Assembly: GCA_947650365.1 (NCBI GenBank)
Contig: OX393553.1
Location: forward strand, 37,167,526 to 37,231,525
Source: Chamaelirium japonicum
Taxonomy: Eukaryota > Streptophyta > Magnoliopsida > Liliales > Melanthiaceae
Direction of reading: 5' to 3'
DNA: 64,000 bases
The notes under the pieces were generated by a model that was not told the origin of the DNA, searched no databases, and was given only the letters and a program-made list of their open reading frames with translations. Below, piece after piece: positions 5,076 to 62,400 of this stretch. A program made the position numbers and the translations under genes. Within the stretch, counting starts at the first letter, position 1; each line of letters opens with the position of its first letter.

Positions 5076-5689
5076 CCTCTTTTTTTAAGCTGAAGGGGCC
5101 CGCTCCCGGGTCCGCTCACCTGCAGCTGACCAATGCCGTCCGATCATAGGCCGACGATTGGATGGGTACAGAATCTTTGCCAAGCCCCCGAATGTGCCAA
5201 AGCGATTGTCCTTGCTGTTCCTCCATGTTCCCGCCTAAACGTGCTTTGGAGGGGACACCGATCGGGTGGTCCAGATCTGTGGGCTTCACGCGCTTGGAAA
5301 AGTCACAGACAAGTCCAGACGCTTACTTTATTTTTGTACCCTACGGTTGCGAGTAGTGTTGCTGGGCCGTGGCTGAGGGTCATCTTGCAATAATCGGACA
5401 ATTCAAGGAGCAGATTCTAACTATCCATTGAGCACGTGCCCCATATTCTCGCAACGGCCATGGCGATGTTCCTTGCTCAAAGTAGTTTTTTTTTTTTCTT
5501 GAGGTAATGTGACTTAGGTCCTTGTATAACATATCAATTTAGTATAGGGACATCGAAACTGTTGATTATAGTTATAGTCTCTATGATTATGAATTCAATA
5601 ACGTTTAGTCACTTCAAAAGGCACATGGAGGTCAGAACTCTTGAAAAATAACCAAAACAGTATTTTGTATTCTTTCCTTCTTCATGTGA
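5076..5689. other. Unassigned intergenic DNA
   Basis: No gene or clear repeat boundary is seen. Overlapping short plus-strand frames at 5133-5393 have no recognisable domain. Confidence 0.45.
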
Positions 5690-6155
5690 AGAATTTCATG
5701 CACCGTCAAAAAAAAAATGCAACAGTGACTCACTATTGTTTTTTTTTTAAAAAAAACAAGATTTTTTTTTTTAAAAAAAAATGCTACAGTGATTTCATTG
5801 TAGCAAATGTTACTCTTTATAAATAGTAACATTTCGATAATGAAGAGTAACGTTTGCTACAGTGATTTTGATGTATATAATTTTTCTATTTTAAACAAGA
5901 TTTATTTAAAAAAAATACTACAATGATTTCATTATAGCAAATATTACTCTTAATTATTCGAAGTATTACTCTTTATAAAGAGTAACATTTCAGTATAAAG
6001 AGTAACATTTGCTACAGTAATTCACTATAGCAAAAATATATAAATTTTAATATCGAGTTTTCCAATAAAAAGTATTTGTTGTAGTGATTTCAATATAGCA
6101 ATTATAAAAATTCTGAAAATAAATAGTAACGGTTGCTACAGAGCTTATATATGTT
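5690..6155. repeat. AT-rich foldback MITE cluster
   Basis: The same palindromic modules recur in both orientations: TGCTACAGTGATTTCA, TGTAGCAAATGTTACTC and GAGTAACATTTGCTACAG. There are at least five occurrences. The arrangement looks like two or three nested or tandem copies of one small foldback element. Boundaries of single copies cannot be set without an alignment. Confidence 0.65.
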
Positions 6156-10561: not shown

Positions 10562-13500
10562 TGTCACGCCCCAGAAATCTGAAACCGATCCCTGGGGTGT
10601 GAGGTGAGAAAAACCAAGGGGATTTAGGGTTTAGTCAGCTATCTATGCCAATGAGGGTTTCTCACAAGACTGCAGCTCTCTCCTAAATGAAGAAGAAGGA
10701 AGAGGGAGAAACAATGGGTATTTTAAAACTTGGTTTTTATGAAAATATTTTTATTTTAAAAGAGAGATAAAATTTTTGTCGATAGAGAGATGATCACGCT
10801 CGACCTTCAACCGGGTTATCCTCTCAGCATGTGCGGCAAGCCGATGCCCCACATGCTGACAGAAGTCCCTCTTAAGGGAGCACGAGGCTCAAGCCTCTAA
10901 CGGCGAGCCGAGTAGTCTCACCCGCTCTCTAGCACTCGGGCACTGTTTTAGAGGTCCTATCTACAGGGCTAGTCAATTAAGTCACTTTAAAATTTATATT
11001 TTATTATGAGCTATCCTAGGCTTGGGGCCTTGAGGAGAGGCCTACCCAAAAGAATTTAGCTGGATCATCACCACTAATAGTCACCAAACACTGACTAAAC
11101 TAAATAATTCTTATTCCAATACAGGTCAATTATATCGAATGAAAGAAAGCCACTACTAATATTGACATGCTAAAAATGAAAAACAAACTAAGACTCTAAC
11201 TCAGCCTCTGGCCTCTCACTGCTACTCCTGAACCTCCGTACCTGCAGGAGAGTATACTCGTGGGAAAGAGTAGCCCCAATAGGAAATTGGGAGATTAGCC
11301 AAATTAATGGCTAGTGACATCCTAATAGTCTCTAATAATATGAGACAACCGATCTAATTAAATTATTATTATTAATTTTTTTTTAGCAGTTCTAGTACGA
11401 ATTATTAATATTTACAAAGGGATAACCTAATCCTACCAGCAGTCTATGTTTTCATGCAATACCTACTGTTATTAGATTGTCTATCATAAAATTCACTCAA
11501 TATTTTACAATATTAATAAACTATTTGAACAAAAAGGTCATCTAAATGTTACCAGATTGTCAATGCTCCAAAATTCCGCTATCCAACATTAAGATTCAAT
11601 ACTTGTTAATTAGTAATCATATAAAATATCTATCCTAATGTGAACCCCGGATATTTTGTTCATCCTGCCCCCGGTCGGGCATTACTATAGGGCCTTTATT
11701 TCGATGTAGAGGGTCAACTCTCTCGCCGCGCATACTCCGACACCATGCGCAAAGTCACCCATATGATCATAAGGGGTTTCCCGTCTTTCACGGTGGAGCT
11801 CTACCGCCCAACTTGCTTTCCTTGGGGGCTTCAACTACCCCAGGACAGGATTGCTAGGCCAATCCCACTTCGAGGGCACCACCTATTGGCTTTACCACAA
11901 TCCCTGCCCGTGACCCCCTAGCCTACTGATCTTCGACTGTGCGCGCAGGGTAGTTCACGGCCCTTGCGCGCACGAGGTCCTAATCTTCTCAATTTCACCC
12001 ATTTTAACAAAGTATTAAATGCTCAAACAGTAAATAATTATTTTTACATAAATACTTAGATAATTAAAAAAAATGCATACGGTGATTAATAGTTTGCAAC
12101 ATTTTAACCCTGGTCCCGCACTGCTCTCGCAATCCATAATAGCGCTACAGCTAAAGGTCACATCGCTCTTAAAGCGATTCAACCTACACTCCCCCAAAAC
12201 CAGTATATTAGGGTTGCCACTCCTTTTAGTAGGGTGGGTCCCGATAATCATTATTAAATTATATTTTTAATTTAAGGGAATACCTAATTACGGTGTCCAT
12301 GCAAAAACTATAATTATTCTATTAATATTTTAAAGCATGTTTATTTTAATAATATTTTAAAGCATGCGTCGCCGGACTCGCGACTTCGCATGCAAGAAGG
12401 GGTCCACGTGACGACATGCGGCGATGCCCGGCGGGACCCGCATGCAGTACCATGGACACCTACCCTAGTTGTTCTCATTTCCCACTATCAAAGACCACGG
12501 GAAGGGGAGTAGATGTCACCTGGTTGTCGATCACGCACAAACTCCCGTTAACTGCCCTTGATCCATCTCCGCTCCATCTACGGCTGGATCATCCCGGTTA
12601 GCACTGCCAAATTCACACATAGCAGACCCATGGTCAATACTTGCTATTGCGTAATACAGGTTTAGGGCCAAGTTGGCCGAGTCAAGAATTTATGCATCAT
12701 CGGACGTCGGTTTATTAGCACGCAAGACGATGCTACAGTCTTGGTTAGTCGGTATTGCCGATGCAAATAATTGCACTACGGCTCAATTGTACTATTCCGT
12801 CTAAATGGTCGCATCCGCGTCGAGCGTGACTTGTGCTCCGAAGAGCCTTCGGCCTTACTACCAAGGTGTGGGTTCAAGTCAAGATTGGGTTCGATTCATC
12901 ATTCCGCCCGATATGATCTCGGGCTTGGGTGCGGATACGGTCGGGTTGCAAAGACAAGTTGTTAAGCCTCACCGAGCCGACGCTTGGGTTGGTGATAGGG
13001 AATGTGTCTCACCCGGTCAATCTCTGGAATTGGCCAGAAGATGCTCTGGGAGCCATCGGGCACCGTCTCGTTTGCACCCAAAATGGTGCGATCGATGAAA
13101 GATTTGCTAAACACAAGTAGGGACATTTTGATAATTCTGATTGGTATGTGTCGACCAACATTCGACGATTAAAGATCGTGAGTTGGAGTCCGATGCCGCT
13201 AGTTTCGCAGCAATCGGAGTCTGTTAGACCAGTTACGACTGACTCTCAAGATTGGTTGGATCGGGTCCTGATAGGGGCGTTTTGGTAATTATGTCTAGTA
13301 GTTGTTAACCCAACGTCAATGGGTAGGTCTTGAAGAATCGAGTCTATTGCCGCCTGTTTCGCCGAATTCCGACTTCGGCAACGAAATGGCGGTCGGGACA
13401 ATTTCGACCACTATGCACTACGTAGTGTAGGGTCTGCCGCTTAAGTGGGGTCCACTCACTTAAGTAGGACCAGCGAGACCTCCCTTCAAGATGGGGGCCA

Positions 13501-40999: not shown

Positions 41000-42204
41000 T
41001 TAGAAGAATTTCGGAGAGATGTGCTTGGTCCTATCGCCTTTGATGAAGTCACTTTGAATTTGAGCTATGCATGCTGCATTATCTTCGTAAATTTCTATAA
41101 GTATATTCGTAGCTGATGGGAGTTGACAACTTCCTCTGATGTGTTGAATCATCGATCGTAACCATACGCATTCTCTACTTGCCTCATAAAGGCCAGTATC
41201 TCTGAATAATTGGATGACGTTGCTACTAGTGTTTGCTTTGTGGATTTCCATGAGATAGTTGCGTTACTATTAAGAAACACATAACCTGTTTGTGATCTCC
41301 CCTTATGGGGATCGGATAAGTAACTAGAGTCTGCATATCCAACTAGGTTAGTCCTTTTATATGAATAGTATAAGCCAAGGTCAACTGTCCCTTTTAAGTA
41401 TCTAAATATATGCTTTATACCATTCCAATATCTACGTGTAGGTGCAGAGCTATATCTAGCAAGTAGATTAACAAAAAATGAAATATCATGCCTAGTGCAT
41501 TGAGATAGATAAAGAATTGCACCTATTGCACTTAAATAGAGTACTTCAGGACCCAATACTTCTTCATTTTCCTCTCTAGGTCTGTATGGGTCTTTGTTAA
41601 CATCTAAAGATCTTATAACCATGGGTGTACTAAGTGAAGAACACTTATTCATATTAAACATCTTCAGGAGATTTTCAGTATATTTTGCTTGATGGACTAA
41701 GATCTCATCCTTGTTGCGTTCGATCTGCAGGCCGAGGCAAAATTTTATCTCACCCAGGTTTATCATTTCAAACTCATTTTTAAGATAGCCAACAGTCTTC
41801 TCAATCTCTTCGGGAGATCCTATTAGATTTATATCATCTACATATACTGCTGCTATTGTAAATCCATTCTGGGATTTCTTAATAAATACGTATGGGCATA
41901 TATGGTCATTTTTATAGCCTTTCCTAGACAGATATTTACTGAGCCGATTATACCATAATCTTTCGGATTGTTTCAGATCGTACAATGCTCGTTTTAATCT
42001 AATTGAATGCGTATTTCTAGATTTGGAGTTTGGTAAATCAAATCCTTCAGGGATTTTTATGTATATTCCACTGTCTAGGTTACCATATAAGTAGGCTGTC
42101 ATTACATCCATAAGTCTCATGCTCAATCTTTTAGAGACAGCTCGACTTATAAGATATCTAAATGTGATGACATCCATAATTGGGGAATATGTTTCCTTGA
42201 GCAA
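41000..42204 (-). pseudogene. Copia reverse transcriptase and RNase H
   Basis: The frame starting at 42204 begins inside the RT fingers (ETYSPIMDVITFRYLIS), continues with MRLMDVMTAYLYGNLDSGIY, and carries the active site YVDD at 41833-41844 (AAVYVDDINLIGS), followed by INLGEIKFCLGLQIE. The thumb/connection region reads CSSLSTPM. The RNase H part reads VGYADSSYLSDP near 41.31-41.34 kb. A frameshift near 41.15-41.25 kb moves the end into a second frame ending near 41000 (IYEDNAACIAQ). Synthesis of element cDNA is the family role; this copy is broken upstream and near its end. Confidence 0.88.
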
Positions 42205-42251
42205 CTAAGCATGCTTTATATCTTTGGATCTCGTTCTTTTCATTTCTTTTT

Positions 42252-42857
42252 CTAACAAACATCCATCTGAAAACCTTCAGGGTTTATTCCTTTTGGGGTT
42301 TGTATTATAGGTCCAAACACTTCACGCTTTGCGAGGGAATCTAGTTCCGCTTGAATCACATCCTTCCATTTTGGCCAATCTTTACTTTGTTGACATTCTA
42401 GGATTGTACGTGGTTCAGTGTCATTATCATCACCCTTTATTATCTCATTTGCCATAGCATGTAAGAACATATCATCGATGACTATTTCTTTTCTATTCTA
42501 TATTTCCCTTGAGTATGTGTAGAACACAGATATCTCATCATTGTTGGATACCGATACCTCTTTCCCAGTCTCTTCTAGGATCTGGAGCATAACCTCGGCC
42601 GGAGCGATATGCTTTAATTTGGAGAAATTGGATTTTTGATTCATGATATCTTCCGGACCGTCATGAACCTTCTCTTCAGGAGATTTTATATTATGAACAA
42701 CTTCTTCAGGAGCTGTAGGGTGTGATATGCTATTTAATCTCCTCTTTCGGGGAGCTAAATCTTTAGAACCTATAGGTCTGCCACGCTTTTGGCTTGTGTC
42801 AAACTCATTTGCTGCCTTATTCTTACTTGGGATATCAATCATGGCAGGTACATTCAT
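42252..42857 (-). pseudogene. Copia integrase-RT linker, two frames
   Basis: Two adjoining minus-strand frames (42498-42857 and 42252-42470) fill the usual variable region between the integrase and RT. One carries KRGRPIGSKDLAPRKRR, the basic linker commonly seen in this family; the other carries ECQQSKDWPKWKDVIQAELD, the conserved segment before RT. A stop and a frame change separate them. Confidence 0.75.
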
Positions 42858-42926
42858 AGCTAGTATGTGTGATTTAGTTACTTTTGCAGCATCATTGAAT
42901 GCATCTGGTAACTCATTTGCAATAGA

Positions 42927-43790
42927 TTACAAGTGTATTATTCTCCTAACTTCATGCTCACATTGGGGAGTCCTGGGGTCTAGATGAGACAGAATGGAAG
43001 TATTCCATGATAATTCACGTCGTTCCTCTTGGATGGGACGTTCATTATCTTTCTTATCTCCCCCTAACGATGGAAAGACTGTCTCATCGAATTGACAATC
43101 CGCAAACCTTGCGGTAAAAATGTTGCCTGTTAAGGGTTCTAAATATTTGAGAATCGAAAGAGACTCAAACCCTATATAAATTCCCAATCTACATTGGGGA
43201 CCTATTTTAGTTCTCTTTGGTGGGGGAATAGGAACATAAACTGCACATCCAAATTTTCGAAGATGAGAAATATTTGGTTGAATTCCAGATACTAATTGTG
43301 CAGGAGAGAACTTATGGTATGCAGTTGGTCTAACTTTGATTAAAGATGTAGCATTAAGAATTGCATGGCCCCAAACACTAGTAGGTAATTTTGAGTGTAT
43401 TAGGAGGGGTCTAGCAATCATTTGAAGTCGTTTGATCAGGGATTCTGCTAAATCATTCTGGGTATGAACATAAGGTACATGATGTTCAATCTCTATCCCT
43501 AGTGATAGACAAAAATCATCAAAAGCTAGAGAGGTAAATTTTGCTGCATTATCCAGCCTAATAGATTTGATGGTCTGGTCAGGAAAATGTGCTCTCAACT
43601 TTATGATTTGTGCTAGTAATTTGGCAAATGCAAGGTTTCTAATCGATAAAAGGCACACATGGTACCATCTAGTTGATGCATCTATTAAAACCATAAAGTA
43701 TCTGAAAGGTCCATTAGAGGGGTGAATTGGTCCACATATATCTCCCTGGATTCTATGAAGAAAAGAAGGTGATTCAGACTCAATCTTCAA
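42927..43790 (-). pseudogene. Copia integrase core and C-terminal part
   Basis: The frame shows the D,D,E core: IQGDICGPIHP, then IKSIRLDNAAKFTS, then HTQNDLAESLIKRLQ. In active relatives the second site is usually DNGGEF or DNAGEF and the third QNGLAE; here DNAAKF and QNDLAE differ, which suggests decay. The C-terminal part reads FGCAVYVPIPPP and RLGIYIGFES. Integration of element cDNA is the family role. Confidence 0.85.
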
Positions 43791-45532: not shown

Positions 45533-45622
45533 TAAAAAGATTTTTTGAGGAATTTTAAAGGCTCACAATTAAAACAGTGAAAATAGGAAGAGGTGCTAGG
45601 TGTCGGTTGTAGCCAATTTTTT

Positions 45623-45886
45623 TGGGTTATTTTGACTGCCCCCCAAAATTTGCCTTGAATTAGGCTTTACCCACCACATTTTCATTAATTAGACTTTACC
45701 CCCCAAAACTAACTGTTCCGTCAGCTCACCATCTAAGAGAAAGGGTGAGTTGACGGAAAAGAAATACAGTTTTGGGGGTGAGCTGACGGAACAGTTAGTT
45801 TTGGGGGGTAAAGTCTAATTAATGAAAGTGTGGGGGGTAAAGTCTAATTCAATGGAAAATTTGGGGGGCAAAGTCAAAATAACCCA
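45623..45886. mobile_element. Foldback MITE (264 bp)
   Basis: TGGGTTATTTTGAC at the left is repeated inverted at the right. The arms pair over about 110 bp (CCCCCCAAAA..TTTTGGGGGG, AACTGTTCCGTCAGCTCA). T-runs on both sides hide the duplication. It lies about 90 bp right of the Copia element. Confidence 0.8.
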
Positions 45887-45997
45887 TTTTTTTTCGCTCG
45901 TCACTTTCAGCGAGTGCAAGTGGCTCGGGCGGGTGATCGCACATTCCCCGTGGCTGATCCTTTTCCGTGGAGTAATGCTAGATGGCCCACTAGTTAG

Positions 45998-47418
45998 GAG
46001 GTTTTTACTGAAATGGCCACCAACTCTCAACTATTGTTGAGAATGGGCCAGGTTGCTTTTGGCTTTACTAAAATGACCACTGAAACTCTTTGGGACCAAA
46101 CTATCCTCATTTGGACGGCAGCTTCCTCCACCTCTTTCGACTGCAACTTTAGGACGAAAAATGGACGAAAAAATGGACGAAAAATGGACGAAAAAAGGAC
46201 GAAAAATGGAACGAAATTGATAAAATTAACAGCACATTTTAGGACGAAAAATGGACGAAAAAAGGACAAAAAAAGGAACGAAAAATAGACGAAAAATGGA
46301 CGAAAAATGGACGAAAAAATGGACAAAAAATGGACGAAAAAAGGATGAAAAATAGACGAAAAATGGAACGAAATTGATAAAATTAAAAGCACATTTTAGG
46401 ACGAAAAATGGACGAAAAAAGGACAAAAAAAGGAATGAAAAATGGACGAAAAATGGACAAAAAAAGGAACAAAAAAAGGACGAAAAAAGGAACGAAAAAT
46501 GGACGAAAAATGGACGAAAAAAGGACAAAAAATGGAACGAAATTGATAAAATTAACAGCACATTTTACGACGAAAAATGGACGAAAAATGAACGAAAATC
46601 AGACGAAATAACAAATTTCGTCTCTAGTTTTCGTCGCCGAAAAATCACAGTCAGTTCTGGCAGAGACTGGCTATGGTCTGTTTGACGAAAATCGGACGAA
46701 ATAACAAATTTCGTCTAGTTTTCGTCACCGAAAAATCAGAGTCAGTTCTGGCAGAGACTGGCTATGGTCTGTTTGACGAAAATCGGACGAAATAACAAAT
46801 TTCGTCTAGTTTTCGTCGCCGAAAAATCACAGTCAGTTCTGGCCGAGACTGGCTATGGCCTGTGTGACGAAAATCGGACGAAATAACAAATTTTATCTAG
46901 TTTTCGTCGCCGATTTTATCAATTTCGTCCATTTTTCGTCCTAAAATGTGCTGTTAATCTATCAACCACTTTTTGTTGATTTCGTTCCTTTTTCGTCCTA
47001 ACTATAATGATGAATAGCCAATTTTATTAATTTCGTTCCTTTTTTCGTCCATTTTTCGTTCCTTTTTTCGTCCTTTTTTTGTCCATTTTTCGTCCTAAAA
47101 TGTGCTGTTAATTTTATCAATTTCGTTCCATTTTTCGTCCTTTTTTCGTCCATTTTTCGTCCATTTTTTCGTCCATTTTTTGTCCATTTTTTCGTCCATT
47201 TTTCCGTCCATTTTTCGTCCATTTACAGTGGGTAAGAAAGCAAGTTACCCAGCCACGATAGGTTTTTACAGTGGTAAGGGTCAATATGTCTTTTTACCTG
47301 GTTAGTGTCACCGTGCAACCTGTTTCCCACGTGCCGGTGGCTATTTTCGTTCAGATTTCTTGACGGGGTCCATTCTCAACAATAGTTGAGAGTTGGTGGC
47401 CATTTCGGTAAAAACCTC
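45998..47418. mobile_element. Mutator-like foldback with GACGAAAAATGG arrays (1.42 kb)
   Basis: It starts GAGGTTTTTACTGAAATGG and ends CCATTTCGGTAAAAACCTC. ACTAGTTAG flanks it exactly (45989-45997 and 47419-47427), a 9-bp Mutator-type duplication. The terminal arms continue with CCACCAACTCTCAACTATTG on both sides. Inside are a purine-rich array of GACGAAAAATGG-type 12-mers (about 46150-46600) and its inverse (about 46.92-47.22 kb), flanking a 91-bp tandem repeat. The Lys/Asn-rich and Phe/Ser-rich frames here are products of the arrays. No transposase is present. Confidence 0.88.
46588..46915. repeat. 91-bp tandem repeat at the centre of the foldback
   Basis: About 3.5 units start near 46588, 46681, 46772 and 46863. 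Each holds GACGAAATAACAAATTTCGTC, itself a short palindrome, then a non-palindromic part with CAGTCAGTTCTGGC and GAGACTGGCTATGG. Units differ at few positions, so the array is young relative to its surroundings. Confidence 0.85.
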
Positions 47419-47427
47419 ACTAGTTAG

Positions 47428-48772
47428 CCTACTTTTGTTGCCAACTCCACGTGGTGTGGAGTGCTGGCAGGCCCTCATTGCCGGAAATATTATGTGGGGC
47501 CCGTGGGGGCCATGGGAAGAAGAGCCCTAGCGGATGCCACGTAAAGTTGGCTACCTAGCGTTTGCCATTTCGGTGCTCGAACTTCGGACAGTGAACGCCG
47601 TTATGACTGATATCGGTTCGATTAGCGGCGTTAGTTTGGCCACGCATCGCCGTCGTCACCAGCACTTAAAATCATGTCGTCCGGTCCCACAGTCCTCCAT
47701 TTTCAACGCTGTTTATCCACAAGATCCCCTCTGGCCTCTGGGTCCTCCTCTCCTCCCTCCCCGGCGTCCCCGCCTTTTTTTTTTATCCTTTTTCTCTCTC
47801 TTCCACATTACCCCCCCTATTCTCAGTATTCTCTCTCCAATATTAAATCCAAATCCCTCTCCCCCTCTCTCTCTCTCCTCTCCCTCCCTCTCTCTCTCTC
47901 TGTCTCTCTCTCTCTTTCTGGGTGTCTATCTCCTCGCCGGAGGCTCTATAGATTCCGGCGAGGGACGGCCAGACGTCTAATCTAGGGTTAGGGGGAAAAA
48001 AAGGCGAGGTGTCGTAATTAAAATATTCCTACTCTCCGATCATCGAGGTTGTGTGTGGTTTCTCTTGCTTGCAATGCAGGGGAAAGTGCCATCGTCGAGG
48101 TTGGACGCTCTCGCACGCCACGAATTCCGAGAACGATCACCTTGCCAATCCCTTCCCTTCCCACTCTCCGATCTCTTCCTTTAAGTTCTTCCTCCTCTCT
48201 CTCTCCCTCTCTCTCTCTACCCTGAAGGTCTGATGAGGCTTTGGTGAGCTTGCTGGAGCCATCGGAGTTGATCTGGTGAGAATTCCTCCTTGTGGACTTC
48301 TTGCTCGTATCCCACTCTCTTTATTGTTTTTTTTTTTTTGTAATTTTGATTTGCCATCGAGTTCTCATCCTGATTGGTGCGAGTGAGGAGCTAGGGTTCG
48401 ATGTGAGCCCCGCGATCTGAATCTGAATTTATGTTTTTTCTGCCTTTGATTTCTCCGTACTGTGTTTTCTTTTTTTCCTTTCCTCCGTATTTTAAGATGA
48501 TCGGTGTTAAGATTTGCTGCAGCGATCTTGCATTAAGAGCTCTCAGCGCCCAAAAATTGAATTCCCTGTTTTCCTTGGAATTTTCTGGTGGAAAAACATT
48601 GAAACCTTCACCGATCAGTTTGTCTTGTCTTAGTTGTTTAATTTTGCTGGATCTTGTTGAATTCCAGCACCGGGAAGCAGTTTGAGAAAGCATGGTTATG
48701 CCGGGAATGTCGCAGTTGTGAGTTTTAAATTTTGCTCTCAGGCTCACAACTTGGTGGTTCAAGAGCTTCAGG
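47428..48772 (+). promoter_or_regulatory. Promoter region and 5' leader of the Mei2-like gene
   Basis: Roughly 47.43-47.66 kb should hold the core promoter by position, though no convincing TATA box is seen. A C/T-rich leader begins near 47.7-47.95 kb. A donor GATCTG|GTGAGAA at 48275/48276 and an acceptor CTCTCAG|GCTCAC at 48741/48742 suggest a 466-bp leader intron ending 31 bp before the ATG. The opposite-strand frame at 48391-48891 overlaps this leader and is not a gene. Confidence 0.5.
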
Positions 48773-59400: not shown

Positions 59401-62400
59401 TCCTCCGTTTTGAGATTGGCGTTTTCTTTATTACATAAAAAATGAAATGGATAAAAAAAAAGATTTTTGTTATTCCTACTTATATATGTTACCGATAGGC
59501 AATATTTTGACAGCTTAAATATGGATGTTTAGTAATAGGTGGTTCGGTTTCTGTAAAGTTTGAATAATCCTTGTTACGATGGCCCAGCCAAAACTCTCCT
59601 AAAATTGCTGTCGGACCTTTTGTCAACTGTTCTCGGTGAATCTTTGTAGGATTACTAGGATAGTAGGATGTCATTGGGAGCTTTATCCCTTTTCAAAATT
59701 AAATATGATATGTGTTTTGTTGTGTTTTTATAGTTGATCATACAGACATTTCAGAGTACCTTATTAGAGAAACTGTTTTTCATCAATTACTTTTTTGTCC
59801 ATATTTGGGGCTATTTCTTAGAGTGATTTTTTTTTGTGTATCGTAATTTGATGACTGGAACAATCTTTGTCGGCAGCCTAATTCCACAGTTATATCCAGA
59901 TCTGGATCAAGAAGAATTAAGTGGATGCATGCAGGGACGCGTCCCTAGTACTTCATCAGAATGCTTTGGTATGATTGCTGGCTAATCATCTATTTCTGTT
60001 TGTCTTGCTTATGTGGTTATGTTTTCCTTTTATCCTGGTCTGCATGACAGTTTCTTCAGGATCGATCGCCCTCGGGGCATTTACCTCCAATGGTCTTGAA
60101 AAGGTACCTATTCAGGGCCTCGCAGGCCGAGCACCAGTTAGCCCATTTATGGGAACCTCATCTCATGGAATTTCTTCTAGTGTGGCACATAATTTATGTC
60201 CTCCGGTGATGGCTGCGACAGTGGGGAAGCACAATAATCAATCTGGCCCTGGTGATCTCAGCCATTCATTACGGCATAGAAACTTTGGTTATCAATGCGC
60301 GCCAACCTTCCATCCTCATTCACTTCCAGAATACCACGACACAGTGAATAACGACATTCCTTTCAACCCCCCAAGCACCTTGTCAGCCATGGATTTTATC
60401 AACTCCAGACCCACCGACAGAAACGATAACAGACATATTCATCATAGGATTGGCTCGGGTGGCCTCGATAACCATTCTTTCGGACACCATGAAGGTGGTA
60501 AGTATGAAGCACATGGAATGTTGAATTTTTGTTGTTGGTTGAGCGGAGTGCAGTCCTCACTTCTATTCAGCAAGGAGAATATCCCTAGTGTTTACAATAT
60601 AGATGTACTTTCATCCTATTAGGCTTGACCTGAAAATAGAGACGAGATTTTTTGTTATGCCTAACTTATTGCTTATGCTTCCTTTTCTGGCAGCATATAT
60701 TTAACAAGGGTAAATTACACTTACTCCCTGAAGTTTAGCCCAAAATCACTTAACCCCCTTCAAGTTTTGTTTTTATTCCAAATCGGTCCCTATAATTTTA
60801 AATGTTAGCACAATACCCCTTTTTGTCAACTACTAATTTCCTCTTTTCGGTATTTTCTATCTATTCAAAACTGAATTAAAGGGGGCAAAATGTAGTTTAT
60901 TAACTATATGGTGGTTAACTGATTTTGGGCTAAACTTCAGGGGGATTAAGTGTAATTTACCCTTAAAACAAAATATTTTTATTCTCATATTACTTGCTTA
61001 ATAAGTAATGTTTCCTTTATTTCACAGCATTTGGGGTTCTGGGAAATGGAAGTTTCCCTCTTCATGGACATGAATATGTAGGGAACACCTCTGAAACATA
61101 TCACCTTAATCTCCCTGGGGCCATGATATGGCGAGGCTCACCATCTTTTGTGAAGAGTATTCCATCTCATTCTCCGCAACAAATGCATGGTGTCCCAAGA
61201 GCACCATCTCATATGCCGAGCACAATTCTGCCCTCACACCACCATTATGTTGGTTCAGCACCTGCTGTAGATCCCTCACTGTGGGACAGCCGGCATTCTT
61301 ATGCAGCGGATTCTATGGAAGCCTCTGCTATTCACCCAGGCTCTCTTGGAAGTATTGGGTTCTCTGGCAGCTCTTCGTTGCACCCATTGGAAGTTGCTTC
61401 TAGTAACCTATTTCCTTGTGCTAATGGAAACTGTGTAGACCCTTCTATGCCTTCGGCTCATGTTGGGATTGCTTCACCTCAGCAAAGGTGCCAATTTTTT
61501 AATCGAAGGAATAAGCCTGGTTCACATGATTCTCCTCCGGACAGGGTTAGGAGCCGACGAAGTGATGGAAATGCCAACCAGGTTGATAACAATAAGCACT
61601 ATGAACTTGATATTGACCGCATTATGCGTGGTGTAGACTCTCGAACAACGCTCATGATAAAAAATATTCCCAACAAGTAAGTGGATAAAGGCGTTCTAAT
61701 TCTAATCTCTACATTTCCCCTTGAGTCTTTGTTATCGTGCCTGTATATATTTTTTCATCTTATGTATTCTTATATGATTATCAGGTACACATCTAAGATG
61801 CTTTTGGCTACTATTGATGAGCATCATCGAGGAACTTATGATTTTATCTATTTGCCGATTGATTTTAAGGTAGTAGTTCTTTATTGATCAGAACCTTCTC
61901 ATATTTGCTGTGGTTTTGAATGTCCTCTTCCTATTATGGATTCGTCTAATGGGGATTTTTTTTCTTTTGTTTTCCAGAACAAATGCAACGTGGGCTATGC
62001 TTTTATCAACATGATTGATCCTCAGCATATCATTCAATTATTTCAGGTTCTACTCATCATTTCCTGATTGAAATAGATTGTTGATTATTTATATTTTTTT
62101 CTGTGTGTATGTGGTTGTGGGTGTTAGTTTCTGTTGAACCCACTATGTTCTAGTGAGATGTAGGAATTATATCTCTGATAAAAAAAATTATTTTAGTTTT
62201 CAATATGGATTTTCTATGTTAGTTATACATATATCATTTATTTTTTATGCGAGTTCTGCCCCAAACACAGCTCTGGCCATGTATCCTTAAAGAACACCAT
62301 AAGATTGTAAGGAAATCTTTTGCAGGCTTTTAATGGGAAGAAATGGGAGAAGTTCAACAGTGAAAAGGTGGCTTCACTTAAATATGCTAGAATCCAAAGT

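Follow-up and report, generated by a model that had tools for sequence, protein, structure and literature searches.

The window that we analysed, a stretch of 64,000 nucleotides of Chamaelirium japonicum DNA, carries at positions 45998-47418 a 1,421-bp element that we regard as very probably a non-autonomous foldback member of the Mutator-like elements (MULEs), built from the noncoding repeats of an autonomous relative that resides in the same genome. Its terminal inverted repeats (TIRs) are 49 bp long and identical at 48/49 positions (left TIR, starting with GAGGTTTTTAC, plus strand, 45998-46046; right TIR, minus strand, 47370-47418). A comparison of the flanks revealed an exact 9-bp target site duplication (TSD), ACTAGTTAG, on both sides (45989-45997 and 47419-47427, plus strand), a length within the 8-11 bp expected of a MULE. 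The exact duplications and matching ends that the initial annotation had described are thus present.

Read from left to right, the left TIR is followed by about 105 bp of subterminal sequence (46047-46151, plus strand), an array of GGACGAAAAAT-like units of about 11 bp (46152-46590, plus strand, from TRF and unit mapping), a core of 3.5 tandem copies of a 91-bp unit (46592-46913, plus strand), the short array in inverted orientation (46933-47224, minus strand, from TRF and inverted pairs), about 145 bp of subterminal sequence (47225-47369, plus strand) and the right TIR. TRF describes the left array (46152-46542) with a period of 11 and 34.7 copies, the core at 94% and the right array (47031-47224) with a period of 11 and 17.1 copies; the first-listed inverted pair (46152-46300 and 47037-47185) extends over 149 nt at 97%. 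The arms begin some way in from the ends, at about 155 bp on the left and 195 bp on the right, so that the TIR proper measures 49 bp. The inverted arrays and the 91-bp tandem repeat between them had been recognised correctly in the initial annotation; its 12-mer unit needs to be amended, as units in the 34 copies analysed mostly follow one another at 11 bp (1,276 cases) and less often at 12 bp (461 cases).

The flanks show that the element entered a pre-existing repeat and duplicated 9 bp in doing so. When the flanks are joined (178 bp), they match 39 other places with 78-83% identity (40 places were scored of 572 candidates); 38 of these 39 matches span the junction, and the remaining one begins 3 bases before it. 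These empty sites are paralogues of the host repeat and do not represent an allele of the window locus. Because the joined flank is partly palindromic, we regard the host as an older MITE-like repeat, about 150 bp long; its left piece lies at 45970-45997 and its right piece, partly palindromic and covered by the same matches, at 47428-47555 (both plus strand). The repeat split by the MULE has at least 39 other scored copies of about 80% identity. Tandem and inverted repeats by themselves would permit a satellite-like palindrome that formed locally, with no transposon involved, but the chance of this is vanishingly small, given that it is contradicted by the TSDs, the dispersed copies and the autonomous partner described below, and ruled out by the empty sites.

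The element belongs to a sizeable family. In the 1.52 Gb of genome sequence searched, the first 24 bp of the TIR occur with at most two mismatches at 841 places (420 forward, 421 reverse; reversed-pattern control, 0), and the junction between the left end and the array has 49 occurrences, including one on a duplicate contig (control, 0); the search for other elements with the same end and array that had been suggested at the outset was therefore productive. With 49 junctions set against 841 ends, only about one family member in eight has the hairpin form. Among the first 100 places listed, 38 inward-facing TIR pairs lie within 40 kb: 18 of 1.4-2.4 kb, five of 3.3-8.9 kb, ten of 11.5-12.4 kb and five longer ones, with some of the longer pairs possibly being chance neighbours. 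Seven of the 38 listed pairs form a uniform second size class of 2.32-2.40 kb (e.g., C1:4122131-4124468), which may represent another non-autonomous subfamily.

We scored 40 hairpin copies out of 990 first-look candidates, a selection biased to close relatives, and found both TIRs with arrays between them in 36 (one being a duplicate locus). The TSD of these 36 copies is a perfect 9 bp in 31, 10 bp in three, a duplication with one mismatch in one and absent in one. Arm similarity and folding were assessed in 34 of the 40 copies and the ends were aligned for 35; set aside were L060 (a duplicate of L059 at the same site on an unplaced contig), L067 (where the pairing caught a neighbouring element), L077 (rearranged arrays) and L051, L056 and L071 (one end missing from the stretch fetched). 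All 34 copies analysed share a single architecture with inverted short-repeat arrays, which substantiates the original designation as a foldback element, and their arms hold between 6 and 55 units on the left and between 9 and 57 on the right. The mean pairwise divergence of the ends among 35 copies is 2.0% on the left and 3.15% on the right. At each of its ends, the window copy departs from the majority by about 2%, compared with medians of 0.7% and 1.0%, and judged by these differences it is somewhat older than most of the best-scoring copies.

The locus L067 also holds a member of 1,375 bp that has no short arrays, although its ends and TSD are intact and 91-mer-like repeats are present; the short arrays are consequently dispensable for insertion. 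The ends of neighbouring family members lie only 21-39 bp apart at three of the 40 copies (L066, 1519/1540; L067, 1558/1597; L076, 2763/2789), which suggests clustered insertion. L059 and L060 represent the same insertion, with the TSD AAGGATATA, on C2 and the unplaced contig C765; they differ in length by 11 bp and are probably a haplotig pair or a duplicate.

The autonomous partner that we read (C2:8854259-8865798) measures 11,540 bp, 5,000 of which are N. It has TIRs identical over 49 bp and a 9-bp TSD, TCGATATTA, and it contains a 700-codon open frame with MULE transposase, Mutator transposase, MuDR DNA-binding and SWIM domains (PF10551, 1.7e-19; PF00872; PF03108; PF04434). The assignment to the Mutator-like elements, initially made from the window, is borne out by this partner, which has matching ends and encodes a transposase of the MURA type. 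Directly ahead of the 700-codon frame lies one of 226 codons that has no Pfam match and may be the first exon of the transposase gene. Of 1,655 first-look candidates, 64 were scored (the query included); they match the 700-codon part with 95-100% identity, and 40 of these 64 are free of stop codons in it; such similarity and integrity point to an autonomous family that is recent and possibly still active. None of 30 loci retrieved in a PF10551 search has an end of this family within 3,285 bp (best TIR score, 13/49), and their own ends may lie beyond. The 91-bp repeats of the partner are themselves inverted across the transposase gene (about 309-658 versus 5204-5956), so that long internal inverted repeats occur there as well.

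With the transposase gene placed on the plus strand, the building blocks of the window element can be mapped onto this partner. Its left 110 bp, and with them the left subterminal stretch, correspond to the transposase-gene side of the autonomous element (97.3% identity to bases 1-110), its right 187 bp (47232-47418) to the other end (95.7% identity to 11354-11540), and its core is about 90% identical to the 91-mers that flank the transposase gene, in forward orientation at about 309-658 and inverted at 5204-5956. The arms match the leader at about 632-1027; outside the 91-mers, the leader contains the GGA[C/T]GAAA unit in ones and twos, seven in total at four sites, up to base 1250. The window element has no match in the transposase reading frames of the autonomous copy that we read; its matches there are restricted to ends, leader and 91-mers. 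By this comparison, the alignments show that both core and arms derive from noncoding repeats of the autonomous element, the arms being expanded and oppositely oriented copies of the GGACGAAA motif of the leader, i.e., of the region from the left end to the transposase frames. The order of arrays and 91-mers differs from that of the leader, and a simple internal deletion of the autonomous element can therefore be rejected as the route by which the hairpin form arose. The transposase of the autonomous copies would recognise the shared ends and could thereby move the hairpin element in trans.

A single strand of the window element is predicted to fold into a long and very stable hairpin. The minimum free energy (MFE) of its RNA is -660.6 kcal/mol (-632.5 for the reverse strand), whereas 30 dinucleotide shuffles give -333.8 +/- 8.4 and a control with only the right array flipped reaches -377.1, and the longest uninterrupted helix in the fold spans 52 bp; the long double-stranded stem proposed in the initial annotation is thus reproduced by the folding calculations. 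Flipping one arm lowered the predicted stability of every one of the 34 copies that were folded. Between 96 and 566 pairs join the two arrays of each copy, and the gain over the flipped control is smallest in L076 (-955.3 versus -874.3) and L069 (-478.0 versus -373.5). With regard to the idea of phased or bent DNA, most A-tracts in four copies are spaced by 10-12 bp, a tally made with no random control.

It had been proposed that a transcript of this kind would be a good substrate for siRNA production and DNA methylation. Transitions in the ends of 35 family copies amount to 3.8% at CG, 2.2% at CHG, 1.2% at CHH and 0.27% at A/T, a spectrum that fits cytosines methylated in all contexts and to that extent agrees, weakly, with the proposal. 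The gradient is not specific to hairpin elements, however. Nine copies of a distant MULE, whose transposase shares 18.8-23.8% amino-acid identity with that of the family over the matched parts, show the same order (CG 6.1%, CHG 4.4%, CHH 2.5%, A/T 0.73%), and the gradient had to be discarded as proof of siRNA-driven methylation. In seven of the nine 3,285-bp stretches of this MULE an inverted self-match is absent and the two others hold short ones (longest, 76 bp), a lack of hairpins that applies to the compared stretches, which are largely coding and leave the ends outside. As a MULE devoid of long inverted repeats there gives a similar gradient, the hairpin need not be the cause of it. The decay of CpG within the arrays was likewise abandoned as a measure of methylation, because CA variants (453) far exceed TG variants (97) and the turnover of units confounds the count.

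The arms themselves provide no sign of selection for pairing, given that their unit counts are uncorrelated (Spearman 0.18, p 0.32) and that the similarity between the two arms of a copy barely exceeds that between copies: 16-mer sharing is 0.520 with the copy's own other arm versus 0.499 with other copies (permutation p 0.007-0.026 across four word lengths), and the partner arm is the best match in only 1-3 of 34 copies. Any homogenisation of the arms within elements is accordingly weak. Nevertheless, the sequence permits an siRNA role. The transposase-side end that the hairpin elements have retained points into the arrays, and a transcript starting from it, or one reading through, would form double-stranded RNA. 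The hairpin copies share exact 21-mers with the autonomous copy at a median of 284.5 positions each (34 copies), about 60% of them at the ends and the rest in the leader, the 91-mers and the right-end repeats. siRNAs derived from the double-stranded RNA would match the ends, leader and 91-mers of the family and might, although of this we are less sure, help to keep it methylated. All in all, we consider a silencing role of the hairpin elements possible but doubtful.

A more specific version of this idea takes the maize locus Mu killer as its model, an inverted duplication from the transposase side of a MULE for which a hairpin RNA has been proposed, according to those parts of the description that were accessible (PMC3440606). 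The hairpin elements would then be its mobile, multicopy analogue, in which an expanded and inverted leader motif, combined with the retained transposase-side end, gives rise to hairpin siRNA that restrains the autonomous copies; the family would thereby spread a self-directed source of hairpin siRNA against its own autonomous members. We judge this improbable. Like Mu killer, the window element contains an inverted duplication taken from that side of an autonomous MULE on which the transposase gene lies, and it has a potential hairpin RNA. Mu killer, however, is described in the same accessible parts as one locus that contains mudrA sequence and two TIRA ends (PMC3440606), whereas here about 49 dispersed copies have noncoding arms and two different ends. 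Measured against the autonomous copy read, the window element contains no inverted transposase coding sequence.

A serious alternative role for the arrays can be put forward, though tentatively: they might bind a protein encoded by the family, either the transposase or an anti-silencing protein of the VANC type, at the motif GACGAA, with inversion and hairpin as mere by-products. The VANDAL elements, on which this proposal is modelled, belong to the MULEs. According to the sections of the VANDAL reports available to us, the anti-silencing protein encoded by these Arabidopsis elements targets short motifs in fast-changing noncoding tandem repeats, and noncoding regions of the same elements are targeted by RdDM (PMC5735166, PMC10398659). 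The present family resembles the VANDALs, as described there, in that its noncoding regions hold tandem repeats of short motifs that change rapidly. One autonomous copy is enriched for GACGAA in three noncoding repeats of different construction: in its 91-mers (14 and 32 occurrences versus shuffle means of 0.6 and 1.3), in its leader (5 versus 0.35) and in a 14-bp unit at its right end (8 versus 0.84), and it occurs 46 times in the window copy (versus 1.9). The independent variation of left and right unit counts would also suit binding arrays. These shuffles form a weak control, however, for tandem copies inflate the counts, and the motif is missing from the 308 bp of the left end (shuffle mean, 0.14) and from the transposase stretch, where its absence means little (shuffle mean, 0.87). 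Furthermore, the array-less member at L067 retains intact ends and a TSD. VANDALs encode VANC and have degenerate TIRs in the accounts available to us, whereas the 49-bp TIRs of the present family are near perfect and no VANC-like gene was identified in the one autonomous copy, in which 5,000 bases are N. A binding function and an siRNA function of the arrays are compatible and do not exclude each other.

It is also conceivable, if rather unlikely, that the arrays are a passive by-product, with slippage and template switching having expanded a leader motif once and the resulting founder having been copied by means of its intact ends. The common architecture of the 34 copies analysed, the freedom with which the unit counts of the arms vary and the minority status of the hairpin form (49 junctions versus 841 ends) would all be expected from such a history. 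The presence of both inverted arms in 34/34 copies speaks against it, but similarity was the basis on which these copies were selected, and common descent accounts for the finding as well. A single genome contains about 49 hairpin copies, at least one copy lacking the short arrays and many transposase-bearing copies that are nearly identical. The family therefore permits a clean test of three possibilities: that the autonomous parent is silenced by an inverted array, that the array attracts a transposase or an anti-silencing protein, and that it has no effect.

Whatever the role of its arrays, the non-autonomous foldback MULE in the window joins a class of elements with several precedents. Foldback MULEs are already known, and the present family is a well-documented new one; we found no published description of it or of its motif in the open-licence literature searched, and a text search for the letters of the TIR and the unit retrieved only papers unrelated by title. 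The Tm1 Mutator/Foldback elements of root-knot nematodes, in the portions of the report available, have composite inverted repeats in which tandem repeats of about 14 bp occur in variable number; their TSDs are mostly 9 bp long, and besides short non-coding members there is one that carries a MULE-domain transposase (PMC3169594). The present family thus shares with Tm1 the variable inverted arrays of short repeats, the 9-bp TSDs and the combination of transposase-bearing and short non-coding members. It differs from Tm1, as these portions describe it, in that Tm1 comes from an animal and its transposase is similar to the Phantom subclass (PMC3169594), whereas the window element has a distinct 49-bp TIR outside its arrays and a 91-bp tandem core between them. 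The FARE elements of Arabidopsis, known here from descriptions alone, are likewise plant foldback elements with a MULE-domain transposase (as cited in PMC4486113, PMC3169594). MuTAnT of Medicago, as far as the accessible text describes it, is a plant foldback MULE family with 9-nt TSDs and a transposase-encoding partner (PMC4486113), as is the case here. In the same text, however, MuTAnT targets TA microsatellites and its 144-bp TIRs fill nearly the whole 292-bp element (PMC4486113), whereas the TIRs of the present family are 49 bp long and the 30 of its TSDs that we tallied follow no (TA)n rule. MULEs with tandem TIRs have been reported too, in what could be consulted of that study (PMC3310237).

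The initial annotation had placed the element just upstream of the promoter of a Mei2-like gene and had discussed an influence on its expression. The gene is real: a Mei2-type C-terminal RRM was confirmed on the joined exon text (61009-62064, plus strand; PF04059, 4.5e-35). The placement just upstream of its promoter calls for caution: the first coding exon recognised, an RRM-like exon read by eye with no significant Pfam match on its own, lies at about 54.1-54.6 kb, we infer the leader of the gene from the region with pyrimidine-rich stretches at 47719-48318 (plus strand), and the element itself is lodged in an older repeat. The distance of 0.2-0.3 kb to a CT-rich leader given earlier holds for the pyrimidine-rich stretches, which begin about 300 bp after the element (47719), and does not hold for the first CT tract detected by TRF, which follows at about 440 bp (47857). 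Part of this region (47886-48132) has a 71% match at C3:4907911-4908152, which may be a paralogous leader. An effect of the element, or of silencing spreading from it, on the Mei2-like gene is no more than a possibility; the copy beside this gene is one ordinary instance of the family.

Two further repeats lie on the left side of the element. A second palindromic MITE-like repeat (45622-45894), with TGGGTTATTTTGAC ends and CCCCCCAAAA-rich arms, is situated about 100 bp upstream of the MULE. Farther away, at 41149-43790 on the minus strand, are parts of an LTR retrotransposon with RVT_2, rve and SH3 domains, which we take to be of the Copia type from its domains.
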